The position numbers and the translations under genes were made by a program. This document shows, one piece after another, positions 30,288-57,618 of a DNA stretch of 64,000 nt. Within the stretch, counting starts at the first letter, position 1. Each line of letters starts with the position of its first letter. The DNA lies in contig JAJYBU010000012.1 in assembly GCA_021778845.1 (NCBI GenBank), forward strand, positions 1 to 64,000, in the 5' to 3' direction. Source of the stretch: Acidobacteriota bacterium (lineage in GTDB: Bacteria; Acidobacteriota; Terriglobia; Terriglobales; Acidobacteriaceae). The notes under the pieces are model-generated. The model was given only the letters and a program-made list of their open reading frames with translations. It made no database searches and was not told the DNA's origin.

Positions 30288-30317
30288 TTTTGGTTGTCAT
30301 CCCGCAGGGATCTGCTT
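30288..30317 (+). repeat. REP-core spacer between arrays 2 and 3
   Basis: 30 bp, identical to the first 30 bp of the earlier spacer except C for T at the centre of ATCCC-GCA-GGGAT; 30 bp is five hexamer lengths. Confidence 0.8.
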
Positions 30318-30443
30318 TTGCCTTTGCCTTTGCCTTTGCTTTTGCTTTTGCTTTTGCCCTTGCCCTTGCCCTTGCCTTTGCCTTTGCCCTTGCCCTTGCC
30401 CTTGCCCTTGCTCTTGCTCTTGCCTTTGCCCTTGCCTTTGCCT
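30318..30443 (+). repeat. hexanucleotide array 3 (21 units)
   Basis: 126 bp in 6-bp register, blocks of TTGCCT, TTGCTT, TTGCCC and TTGCTC. Confidence 0.9.
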
Positions 30444-30475: not shown

Positions 30476-30592
30476 CCCCTCACACGCAGCGCACCCATTC
30501 CGCCCACCCTTCCCGCAACCCCAAAATAAATCCCTCAAAAACAGCCCAAAATCCGCATGTCAACCCCCGAACCACACCCCAAACCCACAAAA

Positions 30593-30668
30593 CCCTTATA
30601 AACAAAGGCGATTTCTCTTCAACAAGCCTGGCATAATCACCCCCACCCACCCGCTACAATTTAATCAG
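30593..30668 (+). promoter_or_regulatory. conserved leader block 1 upstream of scpB
   Basis: Contains TAAACAAAGGCGATT, then TGGCATA at 30629, a CCCC-rich spacer, and TACAAT at 30655. TGGCAT and TACAAT are exactly 20 nt apart. The block aligns without gaps to 46965-47040 (hscB) and 57382-57455 on the minus strand (serA). Promoter function is inferred from the -10-like TACAAT and its place upstream of genes. Confidence 0.65.
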
Positions 30669-30720
30669 TCAAGAAAAAGCAGTAACCGGCCTCAACACCC
30701 TGTGCCGTTAACTCATTTCG

Positions 30721-30830
30721 ATGCAATAGGATACCCGCAACTCCCCTGAAAAGAATACTTTACGCGCAAAAACGCAATAACCCGCGTATAGTGAACACTT
30801 TGAGCCAAAAAGTATGGGGGGGAGGGGGGT
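30721..30830 (+). promoter_or_regulatory. conserved leader block 2 upstream of scpB
   Basis: CCCGCAACTCCCCTGAAAAG, AATACTTTACGCGC, then ACTTTGAGCCAAAAAGT followed by a G7-A-G6 run. The ACTTT/AAAGT arms can form a short stem. It is homologous over its length to 57181-57302 (reverse strand, serA) and in its core to 47144-47183 (hscB). Confidence 0.65.
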
Positions 30831-30953: not shown

Positions 30954-32072
30954 ATGAGTCTCAAAGCCAAGATCGAAGCCGTCATCTACGCGTCCGAAGA
31001 GCCCGTAACGCTCGCCCAACTCACCGGCCTGCTCGGCGAGGAAGGCCAGGCCGAACTCGACGCCATCGCCGCCCAGCAGCACTCCCTCGCCCTCGAAGAC
31101 GAAGCCGTCCTCGACTCCGACTCCAGCGAGCCCGGCGAAGACGCCGCAGCCCTCAACGCCGAAGCCATCCGCTCCAACGACGCTCCCGAGCCCGAGCCCG
31201 TCGCCGCGCTCGATGCTCCCACCACCGAGTCCGAGACCGTCGAACCCGAGACCGCCGAGCCCACCGACAAGCAGCTCGCCCGCGAAGCCGCCGCAGCCGC
31301 CAAACTCCGCGAGGCCGAGCAGAAACTCGCCGCCCGCAAGCTCCGCGAGTACTTCCGCTCCCTCCTCGACCAGCTCATCGCCGACTACGCCAACGGCGAC
31401 CGCGGTCTCGAGATCCGCGAAGTCGCCGGAGGCTTCCGCCTCGGCACCAAAGCCGAATATCACGACGCCGTCCGCGGCTTCGTCAAGAGCCTCAAACCGC
31501 CGCTCAAGCTCACCCTGCAGGCCCTCGAAACCCTCGCCGTCGTCGCCTACAAGCAGCCCATCACCGCTCCCGAGGTCTCCGAGATCCGCGGCGTCGACTC
31601 CGCCGGCGTCCTCGGCTCGCTCCTCACCCGCAAGCTCGTCACCACCGCCGGCCGCAAGCAGGTCATCGGCCGCCCCATCCTCTACAAAACCACCAAGGAC
31701 TTCCTCCTCCGCTTCGGCCTCAAGGACATCAACGAACTCCCCTCCATCGAGGAGTTCGAAAAGATGGCCGGCGAACTCAACGAAGCCGTCCAGGAAGAGA
31801 TCCCCATGGAATCCGAGGCTCCCCCGTCCGACTCCCCCGAATCCGACGCATCCGAATCCGATTCCACTGAGTCGCTCGCTGAATCCTCCACTCCGGACGT
31901 CGAACTCAGCACCGATCCCATCGAACTCGAGGGCTCCAACCTCCAGCCCGTAGTGCTGGAATCCGCCAACGACCTCCCCGATGGCCAACTCGACACAATC
32001 GCCCATCCGCAGAGCGATGAAGCACCATCTCCCGAACCCTCCGGTTCCGACGACGGGCCCGAAACCGCCTGA
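30954..32072 (+). CDS. scpB: segregation and condensation protein ScpB with acidic insertion
   Basis: ScpB is the winged-helix partner of ScpA in the SMC complex. MSLKAKIEAVIYASEEPVTLAQLTGLL starts the first winged helix, and GDRGLEIREVAGGFRLGTKAEY through LETLAVVAYKQPITAPEVSEIRGVDSAGVLGSLL and GRPILYKTTKDFLLRFGL is canonical. Two parts are extra: about 90 residues of Glu/Ala/Pro-rich sequence (roughly residues 33-125) inside the first domain, and about 90 acidic Ser-rich residues after EEIPMES. At 372 residues it is nearly twice the usual size. It is separated from scpA by the SEFIR, permease and PiT genes. Confidence 0.9.
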   Translation: MSLKAKIEAVIYASEEPVTLAQLTGLLGEEGQAELDAIAAQQHSLALEDEAVLDSDSSEPGEDAAALNAEAIRSNDAPEPEPVAALDAPTTESETVEPETAEPTDKQLAREAAAAAKLREAEQKLAARKLREYFRSLLDQLIADYANGDRGLEIREVAGGFRLGTKAEYHDAVRGFVKSLKPPLKLTLQALETLAVVAYKQPITAPEVSEIRGVDSAGVLGSLLTRKLVTTAGRKQVIGRPILYKTTKDFLLRFGLKDINELPSIEEFEKMAGELNEAVQEEIPMESEAPPSDSPESDASESDSTESLAESSTPDVELSTDPIELEGSNLQPVVLESANDLPDGQLDTIAHPQSDEAPSPEPSGSDDGPETA

Positions 32073-46783: not shown

Positions 46784-46964
46784 GCCCTTAAGTGTAAGCC
46801 CGCCCAATTGCTTCGGCGCAGCGCCTGATACATCTGCTCGCCGCCCCACCCAGGATTCTTCAGCCGTCTTTTTCCCGCTCCCCACGCCACCACCCACTTC
46901 GCCCTTAGCACAGCCAGCGTCGTTAGACCTGTCAAGCCCCCTCAACGGCACAAAACAGCCAGAA

Positions 46965-47040
46965 CCCGCATAAACACTGGCGATTAAATCACTAACAACT
47001 TGGCATAGTTACCCCACCCAACCACGTACAATGGAAGTAG
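46965..47040 (+). promoter_or_regulatory. conserved leader block 1 upstream of hscB
   Basis: TAAACACTGGCGATT, then TGGCATAGTT at 47001 and TACAAT at 47027; 20 nt separate TGGCAT from TACAAT. Aligns without gaps to the scpB and serA copies. Confidence 0.65.
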
Positions 47041-47055
47041 ACCCAAAACCACCCT

Positions 47056-47084
47056 GCCCGGCAGCCGCCGGGCCTTCGTTTTTT
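47056..47084 (+). terminator. intrinsic terminator in the hscB leader
   Basis: GCCCGGC-AGCC-GCCGGGC followed by CTTCGTTTTTT. The stem starts only 24 nt after TACAAT of block 1, so any transcript begun there would stop after about 45 nt unless read through. Confidence 0.7.
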
Positions 47085-47143
47085 AATCACTCACCGCGAG
47101 AATGGCGAAGCCGGACTACCACAAGTCCGGCCTCATCCCCATT

Positions 47144-47183
47144 CCCCTCAAGACTTTAGGCCCAAAAGTACCCCGGGGGGAGG
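47144..47183 (+). promoter_or_regulatory. conserved leader block 2 upstream of hscB
   Basis: CCCCTCAAGACTTTAGGCCC, AAAAGTACCCC, then GGGGGGAGG. The ACTTT/AAAGT stem and G run match the scpB and serA copies. It ends about 44 nt before the hscB ATG. Confidence 0.6.
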
Positions 47184-47226: not shown

Positions 47227-47829
47227 ATGAGCCCCGACTACTTCACCCTCTTCTCCCTCCCGCAGCATCTCCACCTCGACCTCGCAGCCCTCGAGAAGGC
47301 CTTTTACGCCCAATCGCGCAAGCTCCACCCCGACCGCTTCGCCAGTCAGCCCCTCGAAGCCCAGCAGGCCGCGCTCGCCGCCAGTTCGCAGCTCAACGAC
47401 GCCTACCGCACCCTCCGCGACCCCATCCTCCGCACCGAATACCTGCTCTCCCTCCAGGGCATCCAGCTCGAAGAGCAATCCCGCGCCGCCACTGACCTTG
47501 CAAAGGCCAGCGGCATCACCAAAAAGCAAGTAGCTCCCCCCGACCTCCTCGAAGAAGCCTTCGAGCTCAACATGGCCCTCGAAGAGATGAAGATGGGCGG
47601 CGACGACCCTGACGCCCGCGAGCAACTCGAGATCGCGCGCGTTAAATTCACCGCCATGCTCACCGAAGCCCACGAGCAGCTCGAAGCCCTCTGGACCGCG
47701 TGGGACACTGCCGTAGACACCAGCAACGAAGCATCCAAAGACTCCGCCAAACAGGCCATGGTCGCTCTGCTCAACCGCCGCACCTACATCCGCAACCTCG
47801 TCCGGGACGTCATCGCCGCCCTCGAATAG
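47227..47829 (+). CDS. hscB: Fe-S protein assembly co-chaperone HscB
   Basis: 200 residues. The N-terminal J domain shows YFTLFSLPQHLHLDLAALEKAFYAQSRKLHPDRF with the HPD tripeptide. The C-terminal helical domain (LLEEAFELNMALEEM) is the IscU-binding part. HscB delivers IscU to HscA. It is separated from iscA by hicAB and DUF6624, and from hscA by three unrelated genes. Confidence 0.93.
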   Translation: MSPDYFTLFSLPQHLHLDLAALEKAFYAQSRKLHPDRFASQPLEAQQAALAASSQLNDAYRTLRDPILRTEYLLSLQGIQLEEQSRAATDLAKASGITKKQVAPPDLLEEAFELNMALEEMKMGGDDPDAREQLEIARVKFTAMLTEAHEQLEALWTAWDTAVDTSNEASKDSAKQAMVALLNRRTYIRNLVRDVIAALE

Positions 47830-55320: not shown

Positions 55321-57006
55321 TTACAACTTCCCGAGTTCGACGGTGCGGACGCTGGTAATCGCGTCCACCTGACGCAGGGCGATGAGGGCCTGCTCGAGCT
55401 CGGGGTGGATGGAGGTTGGGCCGCCGGATGGAGTCATATCCAACTGCACGACAGCAAGAGCGTGGCCTGCGCCGGCTGCCGAACCCTTGGCGGGTTTGGC
55501 GCGGCCGAGCGCGAAGCTGGCGATATTGAGTTTCGCTTCGCCGAGGATCGTTCCAATGCGTCCGATGACGCCCGGAACATCCTGGTTGCGGATGATGACG
55601 AGCGTTCCGGAGAGCTCTGCCTCGATGTCGATGCCATCGTAGCTGAGCAGCCGCGGCGAGTGACCATGCAGCACGGTCGCGAGGCCGGTCCACGTGCCCT
55701 GCTCGTCGCCACCAGCGGTCTTGCGGGTCCAGTGCAGGGTCAGGCGGAGGGTCGCGCCGGTGCCGCCGGAGATCTGCTCGCGCTTGTCCTCCTGCACGCG
55801 CAGGCCGCGTTCTGCGGCGGCGGCATAGGCGTTGATGCGGTTGACGCCGTCGGCGCCGTGCAGCACCCCGGCGATCGCCGCGTTGCGGATCATCTCGGTC
55901 TTCAACTGTGCGAGACGGCCGTTGTAGGTCAGCGAGATGCTCTCGATATTGCCCAGCGCGGTGTTGCTGCTGCCGGTGCCGCCGGCGTGGCCCAGCAGTT
56001 GGCCGAGGCGCGATGCCATCTCGATATACGGCGAGAGCTCGGCGTATTCCTCTTCCGTCAGCGAGGCGACATTGATGGCGTTCTGCACCACGCCCAGCTT
56101 GAGGTAGTCGCGAACCTGGTTGGCGAGCTGAATCCCGATAGCCTCCTGAGCCTCGTCGGTGGAGCCGCCAATGTGCGGCGAGAGCAGGATGTTGTCCAGC
56201 GAGAAGTAGGGTGACTCCTTCAGCGGCTCCTTGCGGAAGACGTCGAGCGCGGCTCCGGCGACTTGGCCGGAGGCGAGTGCCTCGGCGAGCGCTTCGTCAA
56301 CGATGAGCTCGCCGCGCGCGCAGTTCACGATGCGAACGCCCTTCTTCATGGTGGCGATCGATTTCTGATTGATAAGGCCCTCGGTCTGCGGGGTGAGCCC
56401 GACATGCAGCGAGAGGAAGTCGGAACTGGAGAGCACCTCTTCGAGCGACAGCAGCGCGACCTGATTCTCGCGCGCGATGACGGGAGCGATGAACGGATCG
56501 TAGCCGATGACCGTCATGCCGAAGGCCTGGGCGCGGCGGGCAACCTCCAGCCCAACGCGGCCGAGACCGATGATGCCCAGCATCTTACCGCGCAGCTCTG
56601 AACCTTGTAACGATTTCTTCTCCCACTTTCCAGCGTGCATGGTGACGTTGGCGCGGGGAATGCCGCGGGCCATCGAGATCATGAGGCCAAGCGTGAGCTC
56701 GGCGACGGCTACCGCGTTGGCGCCGGGGGTGTTCATCACAACGATGCCGCGGCGCGTGGCCTCGTCGGCGTCGATGTTGTCCACGCCCACGCCGGCGCGG
56801 CCGATGATGCGCAGCTTCGGCGCGGCGGCGAGCAGGGCGGCGTCGGCCTGAACCGCCGAGCGGACGATCAGCGCGTCGGCGTCGGCCAGCTCCGCGGGCA
56901 GGCCGCCGGGTGCGATCTGGTCAGCGGTGACGACGTTCCATCCGGGCTCTTCCTGGAAGATGGCGAGTGTGGCGGGTGAGACCTTTTCTGCGAGAACGAT
57001 CTTCAA
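55321..57006 (-). CDS. serA: D-3-phosphoglycerate dehydrogenase, long form
   Basis: 561 residues from a TTG at 57006 with GGAG 7 nt upstream (LKIVLAEKVSP...); the longer track ORF crosses the conserved leader. First enzyme of serine synthesis. Substrate and NAD domains: IIGRAGVGVDNIDADEATRRG, LGIIGLGRVGLEVARRA, VNCARGELIVDEALAEAL, and catalytic His in LSPHIGGSTDEAQ. Then an ASB (intervening) domain and a C-terminal ACT domain (LVIIRNQDVPGVIGRIGTILGEAKLNI) that binds serine in related enzymes. Confidence 0.94.
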   Translation of the reverse strand: MKIVLAEKVSPATLAIFQEEPGWNVVTADQIAPGGLPAELADADALIVRSAVQADAALLAAAPKLRIIGRAGVGVDNIDADEATRRGIVVMNTPGANAVAVAELTLGLMISMARGIPRANVTMHAGKWEKKSLQGSELRGKMLGIIGLGRVGLEVARRAQAFGMTVIGYDPFIAPVIARENQVALLSLEEVLSSSDFLSLHVGLTPQTEGLINQKSIATMKKGVRIVNCARGELIVDEALAEALASGQVAGAALDVFRKEPLKESPYFSLDNILLSPHIGGSTDEAQEAIGIQLANQVRDYLKLGVVQNAINVASLTEEEYAELSPYIEMASRLGQLLGHAGGTGSSNTALGNIESISLTYNGRLAQLKTEMIRNAAIAGVLHGADGVNRINAYAAAAERGLRVQEDKREQISGGTGATLRLTLHWTRKTAGGDEQGTWTGLATVLHGHSPRLLSYDGIDIEAELSGTLVIIRNQDVPGVIGRIGTILGEAKLNIASFALGRAKPAKGSAAGAGHALAVVQLDMTPSGGPTSIHPELEQALIALRQVDAITSVRTVELGKL

Positions 57007-57180
57007 ATACGGCTCCAGTATGGTTGGGGCGCGGATGCGCAACCCTACTAGTGTACTTCGGGACGGGCGTCTGGTCCGACGGTTGCCAGTGCTCGTTCTG
57101 AGCCCCCCTGATTCCGATTGGCCGATGCGAACGAGGTGCGAGCCGCCGCTGTGCCGCTGCTGGCCGGGAACGCCCGCACG

Positions 57181-57302
57181 CCCCCCTCCCCTCCCCCCCC
57201 ATACTTTTTCGTCTAAAGTATTCCATTCAGGTGAGTTGCGGGGGGGGTTGGCTGCAAAGTATTCCATTCAGGAGGGTTGCGGGTAAGCTATTCCATTCGT
57301 TG
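57181..57302 (-). promoter_or_regulatory. conserved leader block 2 upstream of serA
   Basis: Read on the minus strand: CCCGCAACCCTCCTGAATGG, AATACTTT, a second similar unit, then ACTTTAGACGAAAAAGT and a G8-A-G4-A-G6 run. ATTCCATTC occurs three times on the plus strand about 30 nt apart, so the unit is partly tandem here. Homologous to 30721-30830. Confidence 0.65.
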
Positions 57303-57381
57303 AGGTTAGGTTCTGCGCGGACGGCGGGAGGCTTCGCCTACAGGGCGACGGAGCTGGTGCGGGGGCTTGATGGGGATGGGT

Positions 57382-57455
57382 CTAGTTAAATTTTACGCGC
57401 GCGGCGGGGGTAACTATGCCAGGTTGGCGAGAGAGAAATCGGCAGTGTTCACAGG
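57382..57455 (-). promoter_or_regulatory. conserved leader block 1 upstream of serA
   Basis: On the minus strand: GAACACTGCCGATTTCTCTC, then TGGCATAGTTACCCCC and TAAAAT 20 nt after TGGCAT. Aligns with the scpB and hscB blocks. Confidence 0.65.
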
Positions 57456-57618
57456 GGTTTTGTGCAGATTGGGGCGGCGAGGGGGTTGACACGCGAGTTT
57501 TGGGCTGTTTTCGACGAAATTATTTTTGGGAACAGCGAGTTCCGCCCCTCGCGTCGTCGCGAGCCCCACAAAGTATCAAGCACAGGGCCCCCGACGTTTG
57601 CTGAGAGGGCCGTTGGCA

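Follow-up and report, generated by a model that had tools for sequence, protein, structure and literature searches.

The window analysed here, that is, the whole stretch of 64,000 nucleotides, contains the genes scpB (ScpB; 30954..32072, + strand), hscB (HscB; 47227..47829, +) and serA (phosphoglycerate dehydrogenase; 55324..57267, - strand, with the true start probably near 57045), each of which is the downstream neighbour of one copy of a conserved sequence, Block 1. The sequence-only reading that first reported this shared block is borne out, as its motifs were recovered in place near all three genes. In the scpB copy (+), GGCGATT lies at 30607, TGGCAT at 30629-30634 and TACAAT at 30655-30660, the last two framing the interval 30629..30660; in the hscB copy (+) the same three motifs are found at 46979, 47001-47006 and 47027-47032, and in the serA copy (-) CCGATT is accompanied by TGGCAT at 57421-57416 and TAAAAT at 57395-57390. 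TGGCAT and the AT-rich hexamer are exactly 20 nt apart in all three copies, as had been claimed; of 34 copies in the same genome, 29 keep this spacing and 5 have 19 nt. A scan of the hscB copy returned no sigma-70 type -35/-10 pair (16-18 nt spacing). The three copies do align without gaps, but the 75 bp originally assigned to the element is too short, the conserved unit being about 123 bp and nearly gapless. This unit begins at TGTCAA (30558 for scpB, 46930 for hscB and 57491 on the - strand for serA) with the start sequence TGTCAACCCCC or TGTCAAGCCCC. Block 1 occupies 30558..30668 (+; TGTCAACCCCC to TTTAATCAG) at scpB, 46930..47041 (+) at hscB and 57381..57491 (-) at serA. An upstream AACAGCCCAAAA extension, present in some copies and absent from others, divides them into two subfamilies; the scpB copy, which has the subfamily A mark AACAGCCC at 30540, and the serA copy belong to subfamily A, and the hscB copy to subfamily B.

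In the window, a profile built from the three copies recovers only these (E 1e-29 to 1e-39, against 2.3 for the runner-up). In the whole genome, a 14-nt core with one mismatch allowed gives 38 matches versus 2 for the reversed control, and a calibrated sequence-only model detects 37 copies at E <= 2e-7. It is well supported that these approximately 37 dispersed copies form a repeat family. About half of them face away from the next gene. RNAalifold predicted no consensus pair on the Block 1 alignment, and an Rfam search with Block 1 gave no family match at the gathering or a relaxed threshold; an RNA element was for these reasons dropped in favour of a DNA element.

Block 1 is the conserved promoter-like head of a polar intergenic element of about 300-500 bp that is present at dozens of unrelated sites. 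It opens with TGTCAA(G/C)CCCC, followed by TGGCAT-20-TACAAT and, in many copies, by a terminator-like hairpin; then come a C-rich array and, last, the G5-8-A-G4-8 tail. The TA[AC]AAT hexamer is nearly invariant across copies and has a TAG-type start region; judged by its letters, a promoter-like -10 inside the element, followed by the terminator-like hairpin, is plausible. Stems of at least 8 bp occur within 90 nt of the hexamer in 49 of the 115 copies of named genomes, versus 2.8 expected from shuffles. The hscB copy features an intrinsic-terminator-like hairpin, GCCCGGCAGCCGCCGGGC plus CTTCGTTTTTT (T tail), at 47056..47083 (+), 24 nt past the -10-like hexamer, and a second short hairpin, GAAGCCGGACT/AGTCCGGCCTC, at 47107..47134 (+). 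The array, located 3' of the TA-hexamer, is C-rich and G-poor and consists of degenerate units of about 30-40 nt (e.g. TAACCC..TGAATGGAATACTTTACCCGCAACCC), which lie at 30720..30794 (+; GATGCAATAGGATACCCGCAACTCCCCTGAAAAGAATACTTTACGCGC...) in the scpB copy and at 57224..57310 (-; GAATGGAATAGCTTACCCGCAACCC / GAATGGAATACTTTGCAGCC) in the serA copy. The array unit is genome-specific (AATACTTTAC in this genome, GAAAGACGATTTTGCCCC in G107 and AATTATTTAC in G357), while the order of parts is constant. The tails are ACACTTTGAGCCAAAAAGTATGGGGGGGAGGGGGG at 30795..30830 (+) for scpB, AAGACTTTAGGCCCAAAAGTACCCCGGGGGGAGG at 47150..47183 (+) for hscB and AATACTTTAGACGAAAAAGTATGGGGGGGGAGGGGAGGGGGG at 57177..57223 (-) for serA. 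A G5-8-A-G4-8 run is found 150-470 nt downstream in 30/34 copies of this genome and upstream in 1/34, and in the GTDB set it is downstream in 87/117 copies and upstream in none. At the tightest upstream junction (L013), TGTCAA stands 4 nt past the stop codon of the preceding gene.

Several other repeats were noted in or near elements. A second tail type, GATTCCAnATGCT(A/G)..TTACTA..AAGTAACGGGGGG, goes with weak Block 1 matches at C61:111712 (+) and C61:123066 (-) of the same genome (G000); these copies, which also lie at skew extremes, are possibly a second element subfamily. Degenerate CTTTGCC/CTTGCC repeats are present at 30310-30440 of the window and upstream of several elements (L001, L005, L010, L016 and L023), and at the same sites a dispersed hairpin repeat, TGTCATTCCG(C/A)AGCGAAGCGGAGGAATCTGCTTC, is found beside subfamily A elements.

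Block 1 had been taken for a possible promoter or leader of scpB, hscB and serA, all copies pointing toward the gene. This orientation is true of the window (3/3) but not of the genome, in which the next gene is co-oriented in 15 of 32 cases and convergent in 17. The orientations of the upstream and downstream neighbours are (+,+) in 12, (+,-) in 8, (-,-) in 7 and (-,+) in 2 copies of this genome, all by ORF-based gene calls, in which names other than scpB, hscB, serA, pitA, hscA and lipA were read from translations. The start region of scpB itself, TTGATACACTCAACGCTGCACCCATG, is kept in congeners that lack the element, and whether or not a congener has the element, the start-proximal sequence TTGATACACTCAACCCTGCACCCATGAG of scpB is conserved, as is the start region of hisS. 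The gap between pitA and scpB is about 70 bp in G341, where this site is free of the element, versus 1.03 kb in the genome studied here. At the nusB, ychF and ribBA sites a few close relatives have the element and others do not, and most orthologous sites in relatives are without it. Because about half of the copies face the 3' ends of convergent genes, native starts are conserved and most orthologous sites are empty, the leader reading fails, and it is well supported that the element is no gene leader. Among the three readings offered from the sequence, a mobile non-coding element comes nearest to the evidence, its ends and its mobility being putative. A Rho-utilisation site of the upstream gene was rejected since upstream genes occur in either orientation; the hscB copy, for example, has a divergent upstream ORF.

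Of 299 genomes scanned across the class with the head-to-hexamer pattern, 33 have the element, nearly all of them Acidobacteriaceae, in up to 43 copies per genome; a reversed control pattern gave practically no matches. With a stricter pattern, 116 stretches were obtained from GTDB; among the matches listed all are from Acidobacteriota, mostly Acidobacteriaceae, and the main genera and species are Granulicella, Edaphobacter, Terriglobus (Terriglobus roseus) and Acidobacterium. Since the detection motif is C-rich and requires C-runs, elements in G-rich surroundings could be missed in these counts. Within the genus, copy number ranges from 45 down to 0, and the element-free congeners, defined as those below model detection, belong to at least two clades in a rough tree. 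A phage origin was discarded: only five viral contigs (L532-L536) have a loose Block 1 match, and no viral contig was found to encode the zinc-finger protein described below. A search for literature on GC skew or such repeats in Acidobacteria returned no papers.

One small gene tracks the element. It encodes a Cys/His zinc-finger protein of the pattern C-x2-[HY]...C..PAL....C-x2-H with a helical-looking C-terminal part, and is present in 15/16 element-bearing versus 0/12 element-free congeners (Fisher 4e-7; the species are related, so cross-species counts of this kind are not phylogenetically independent). The exception, G351, has 23 elements and no detected zinc-finger gene in a genome that is 74% complete. 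The gene lies directly behind an element in G000 (two), G355 (two), G356, G358, G375, G341 and G083; a divergent copy of the present genome (L003) and copies in G107, G095, G047, G054, G083 and G087 sit upstream of it. A G-run is located within 350 nt upstream of 13/22 zinc-finger genes, versus 10% of control positions. In the GTDB set, only 2 of 117 copies have a zinc-finger gene within 1.5 kb, and the pattern is one of mostly solo copies plus a few gene-bearing ones. No catalytic motif was recognised in the protein sequence, and its similarity to zinc fingers of the primase/MCM10 type (zf-primase/MCM10) is below threshold; no transposase or nuclease was identified for the element. The assignment of the zinc-finger gene as the partner of the element is supported. 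Gene copies behind elements are sometimes interrupted by stops, and stop-interrupted genes were observed at G341:C5:1420817, G358:C11:1109 and G375:C12:5869, all three directly behind an element head, and at G354:C78:47697. In addition, the stretch of L003 (G000:C23) that separates the element head from the zinc-finger gene contains, about +90 to +420 past the hexamer, a short ORF rich in CK-[DN]-[DG]-[AT]-C repeats (NESCKNDACKNGTCQHDACQHDACK...).

The element is also oriented relative to local strand composition. In the flanks outside the element, C exceeds G on the element strand for 33/34 copies of this genome and 38/40 copies of relatives; the same holds for 104/116 GTDB copies and, in congeners, for 18/19 copies on the downstream and 16/19 on the upstream side. 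Up to 52 kb the skew of the window is -0.2 to -0.35 (about -0.3) whichever way the genes run, and beyond 52 kb it is +0.05 to +0.25, with the two + elements to the left of this switch and the - element to its right. Oriented skew at elements is -0.296, versus -0.007 +- 0.063 for random placements on the same contigs (0/2000 reach it). Within 2.5 kb upstream of elements, + genes (-0.303) and - genes (-0.309) show the same skew at the same place, so a coding-strand effect was rejected as its source. In this genome the skew peaks at -0.31 at -1 to -2 kb from the element and reaches zero at +4 to +5 kb; G107 replicates the profile with zero at +3 kb, the GTDB set shows a steady fall out to +6.5 kb, and G239 has the right sign with a skew that is uniform, not peaked, around elements. 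At five orthologous loci the mean absolute skew deviation is 0.164 in congeners with at least 10 copies versus 0.051 in those with at most 3 (p 1.5e-4), while at the nusB locus alone skew is equal with and without the element, a per-site comparison that is confounded by phylogeny. An excess of C over G with slightly more A than T is what is expected of a strand whose partner is more often single-stranded, as a lagging-strand template is; the composition near elements suggests that the minus strand may be exposed in this way. To our knowledge, no element has been described as lying where the two strands differ unusually in make-up. Other contigs of the genome show several such skew switches per 180 kb. 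A hidden element predicted from a skew drop at 25-26 kb of the window was not seen by eye; the region about 25.4-26.9 kb holds a gene with, by eye, a TIR/SEFIR-like domain (SVKSAFISYSWDDNAHCEWIRELATRLRKDGVDVCIDRW), and local skew there is low (-0.02 at 26 kb).

We propose, tentatively and at slightly short of an even chance, that the element is one half of a dispersed two-component system, in which non-autonomous copies are acted on in trans by the small Cys/His zinc-finger protein and each copy is a polar site of strand processing or synthesis. This account is preferred because it is the simplest that covers the repeat family, the partner gene and the asymmetry together. The head would serve as the promoter of the zinc-finger gene where that gene is present and would elsewhere give a short terminated transcript. 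The protein, with or without this transcript, would turn each element into a strand-specific site of DNA processing or synthesis directed upstream, and this process would leave the minus strand single-stranded more often. In the long run the plus strand would gain C, and slightly A, over many kb on the upstream side and a few kb on the downstream side. What we infer here is that the element moves, that the protein acts on it, and which DNA process is at work in which direction.

The strongest rival, which we consider unlikely though by no means negligible, reverses cause and effect: a mobile element would insert in an orientation fixed by the replication fork, in the manner of elements that target single-stranded DNA, and a strong replication skew shuffled by inversions would precede the element rather than be made by it. 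Elements indeed nearly always take the orientation that matches the local skew, and the skew in places switches abruptly, as in C61 at 55 kb and in the window at 52 kb; an orientation bias to the lagging-strand template is described for IS200/IS605 elements (PMC6006769). However, absolute skew is also higher at elements than at random places on the same contigs (0.296 versus 0.198 +- 0.026; 0/2000 reach it), many transitions are gradual over 8-10 kb (C19 and C61), and element-free congeners are without strong local skew. In G107, moreover, elements alternate in orientation along a stretch of uniform +0.07 baseline skew and local deviations occur at the elements: of the two elements within a 400-kb stretch, one has a strong skew deviation and the other, at 277 kb, departs only modestly from its baseline (8th percentile).

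A transcription-primed (R-loop) start of DNA replication, in which a short transcript would be held as RNA by the G-A-G run and prime synthesis, seems improbable. It would account for the order of parts, a promoter-like block followed after 150-470 nt by the G5-8-A-G4-8 run, and for the origin-like change from C-rich to G-rich skew across the locus in this genome and in G107. In mitochondria, LSP transcripts end about 120 nt downstream at the G-rich CSBII and form R-loops that are used for priming (PMC6317783). Against such a start, the sign change in the present element falls at +3 to +5 kb rather than at the G-run, G239 and the GTDB set have either a one-sided change or none, and the terminator-like hairpin should end most transcripts ahead of the G-run. 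A vertically inherited intergenic structural site, for example a terminator or insulator cluster at the ends of transcription units that drifts with the lineage and is often lost, is quite improbable: it fits the conservation of the ribBA-site element at the orthologous position in six congeners and the frequent contact of the G-run tail with the stop codon of a convergent gene, but it leaves unexplained the co-occurrence of the partner gene, the strand asymmetry and the genome-wide change of array unit between close species (AATACTTTAC here and AATTATTTAC in G357). A promoter or leader that serves the housekeeping genes downstream, with recognition by an unusual sigma factor or by sigma-70 plus an activator at -38, is very doubtful. 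The near-invariant TA[AC]AAT, the constant 20-nt spacing, the TAG-type start region and the three gene-facing window copies might suggest it, but in 17/32 cases the next gene is convergent, scpB and hisS keep their native start regions where the element is missing, and many copies have a terminator-like hairpin within 90 nt downstream.

The two-component account can be taken further, to a version that we regard as rather unlikely: the elements together with the zinc-finger protein would constitute dispersed polar strand-processing or synthesis sites outside oriC that imprint domains of opposite asymmetry, with the element set, the array motif and the protein co-varying between species. Bacterial strand asymmetry is normally explained by one origin plus transcription. 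Here the asymmetry tracks a dispersed element whatever the gene direction and is strong only in element-carrying species, and one uncharacterised gene tracks that element. If the element is the cause of the asymmetry, chromosomes would have an actor of a new kind, one on which the shaping of genomes by local exposure of single-stranded DNA could be tested directly; if it is only a reader, abundant soil bacteria would still have yielded a new repeat family whose orientation rule is unusual.

Four known systems invite comparison. As in the mitochondrial LSP-CSBII region, a promoter, here a promoter-like block, is followed by a G-A-G run with a skew change nearby; the element differs in occurring in dozens of copies on a bacterial chromosome, with a longer spacing and a hairpin and array in between, and priming would apply to it by analogy. 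Putative mobile promoters are repeated promoter-bearing sequences and share with the element a repeated promoter-like block upstream of unrelated genes, but about half of the element copies face something other than a gene start, and here the block is joined to a hairpin, an array and a G-run tail in a larger unit. The element resembles MITEs in being small, multi-copy, intergenic and present or absent between relatives, but it lacks clear terminal inverted repeats, a test for which gave only weak C-run/G-run pairs (72%, 25 nt) in the scpB copy that the hscB copy does not share, and its orientation is fixed relative to local strand composition; no target-site duplication was identified on comparison with orthologous empty sites, which are much diverged. 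REPIN/RAYT systems likewise combine many long-persisting intergenic copies with a cognate gene that tracks the presence of the repeat. REPs, however, are short GTAG-tagged palindromes of 20-40 bp with a Y1 (HUH) transposase, whereas the present element is asymmetric, 300-500 bp long and equipped with a promoter-like head, and reads N-[TC]-A-G at the tag position; the product of its tracking gene is a small zinc-finger protein in which no catalytic domain was recognised.
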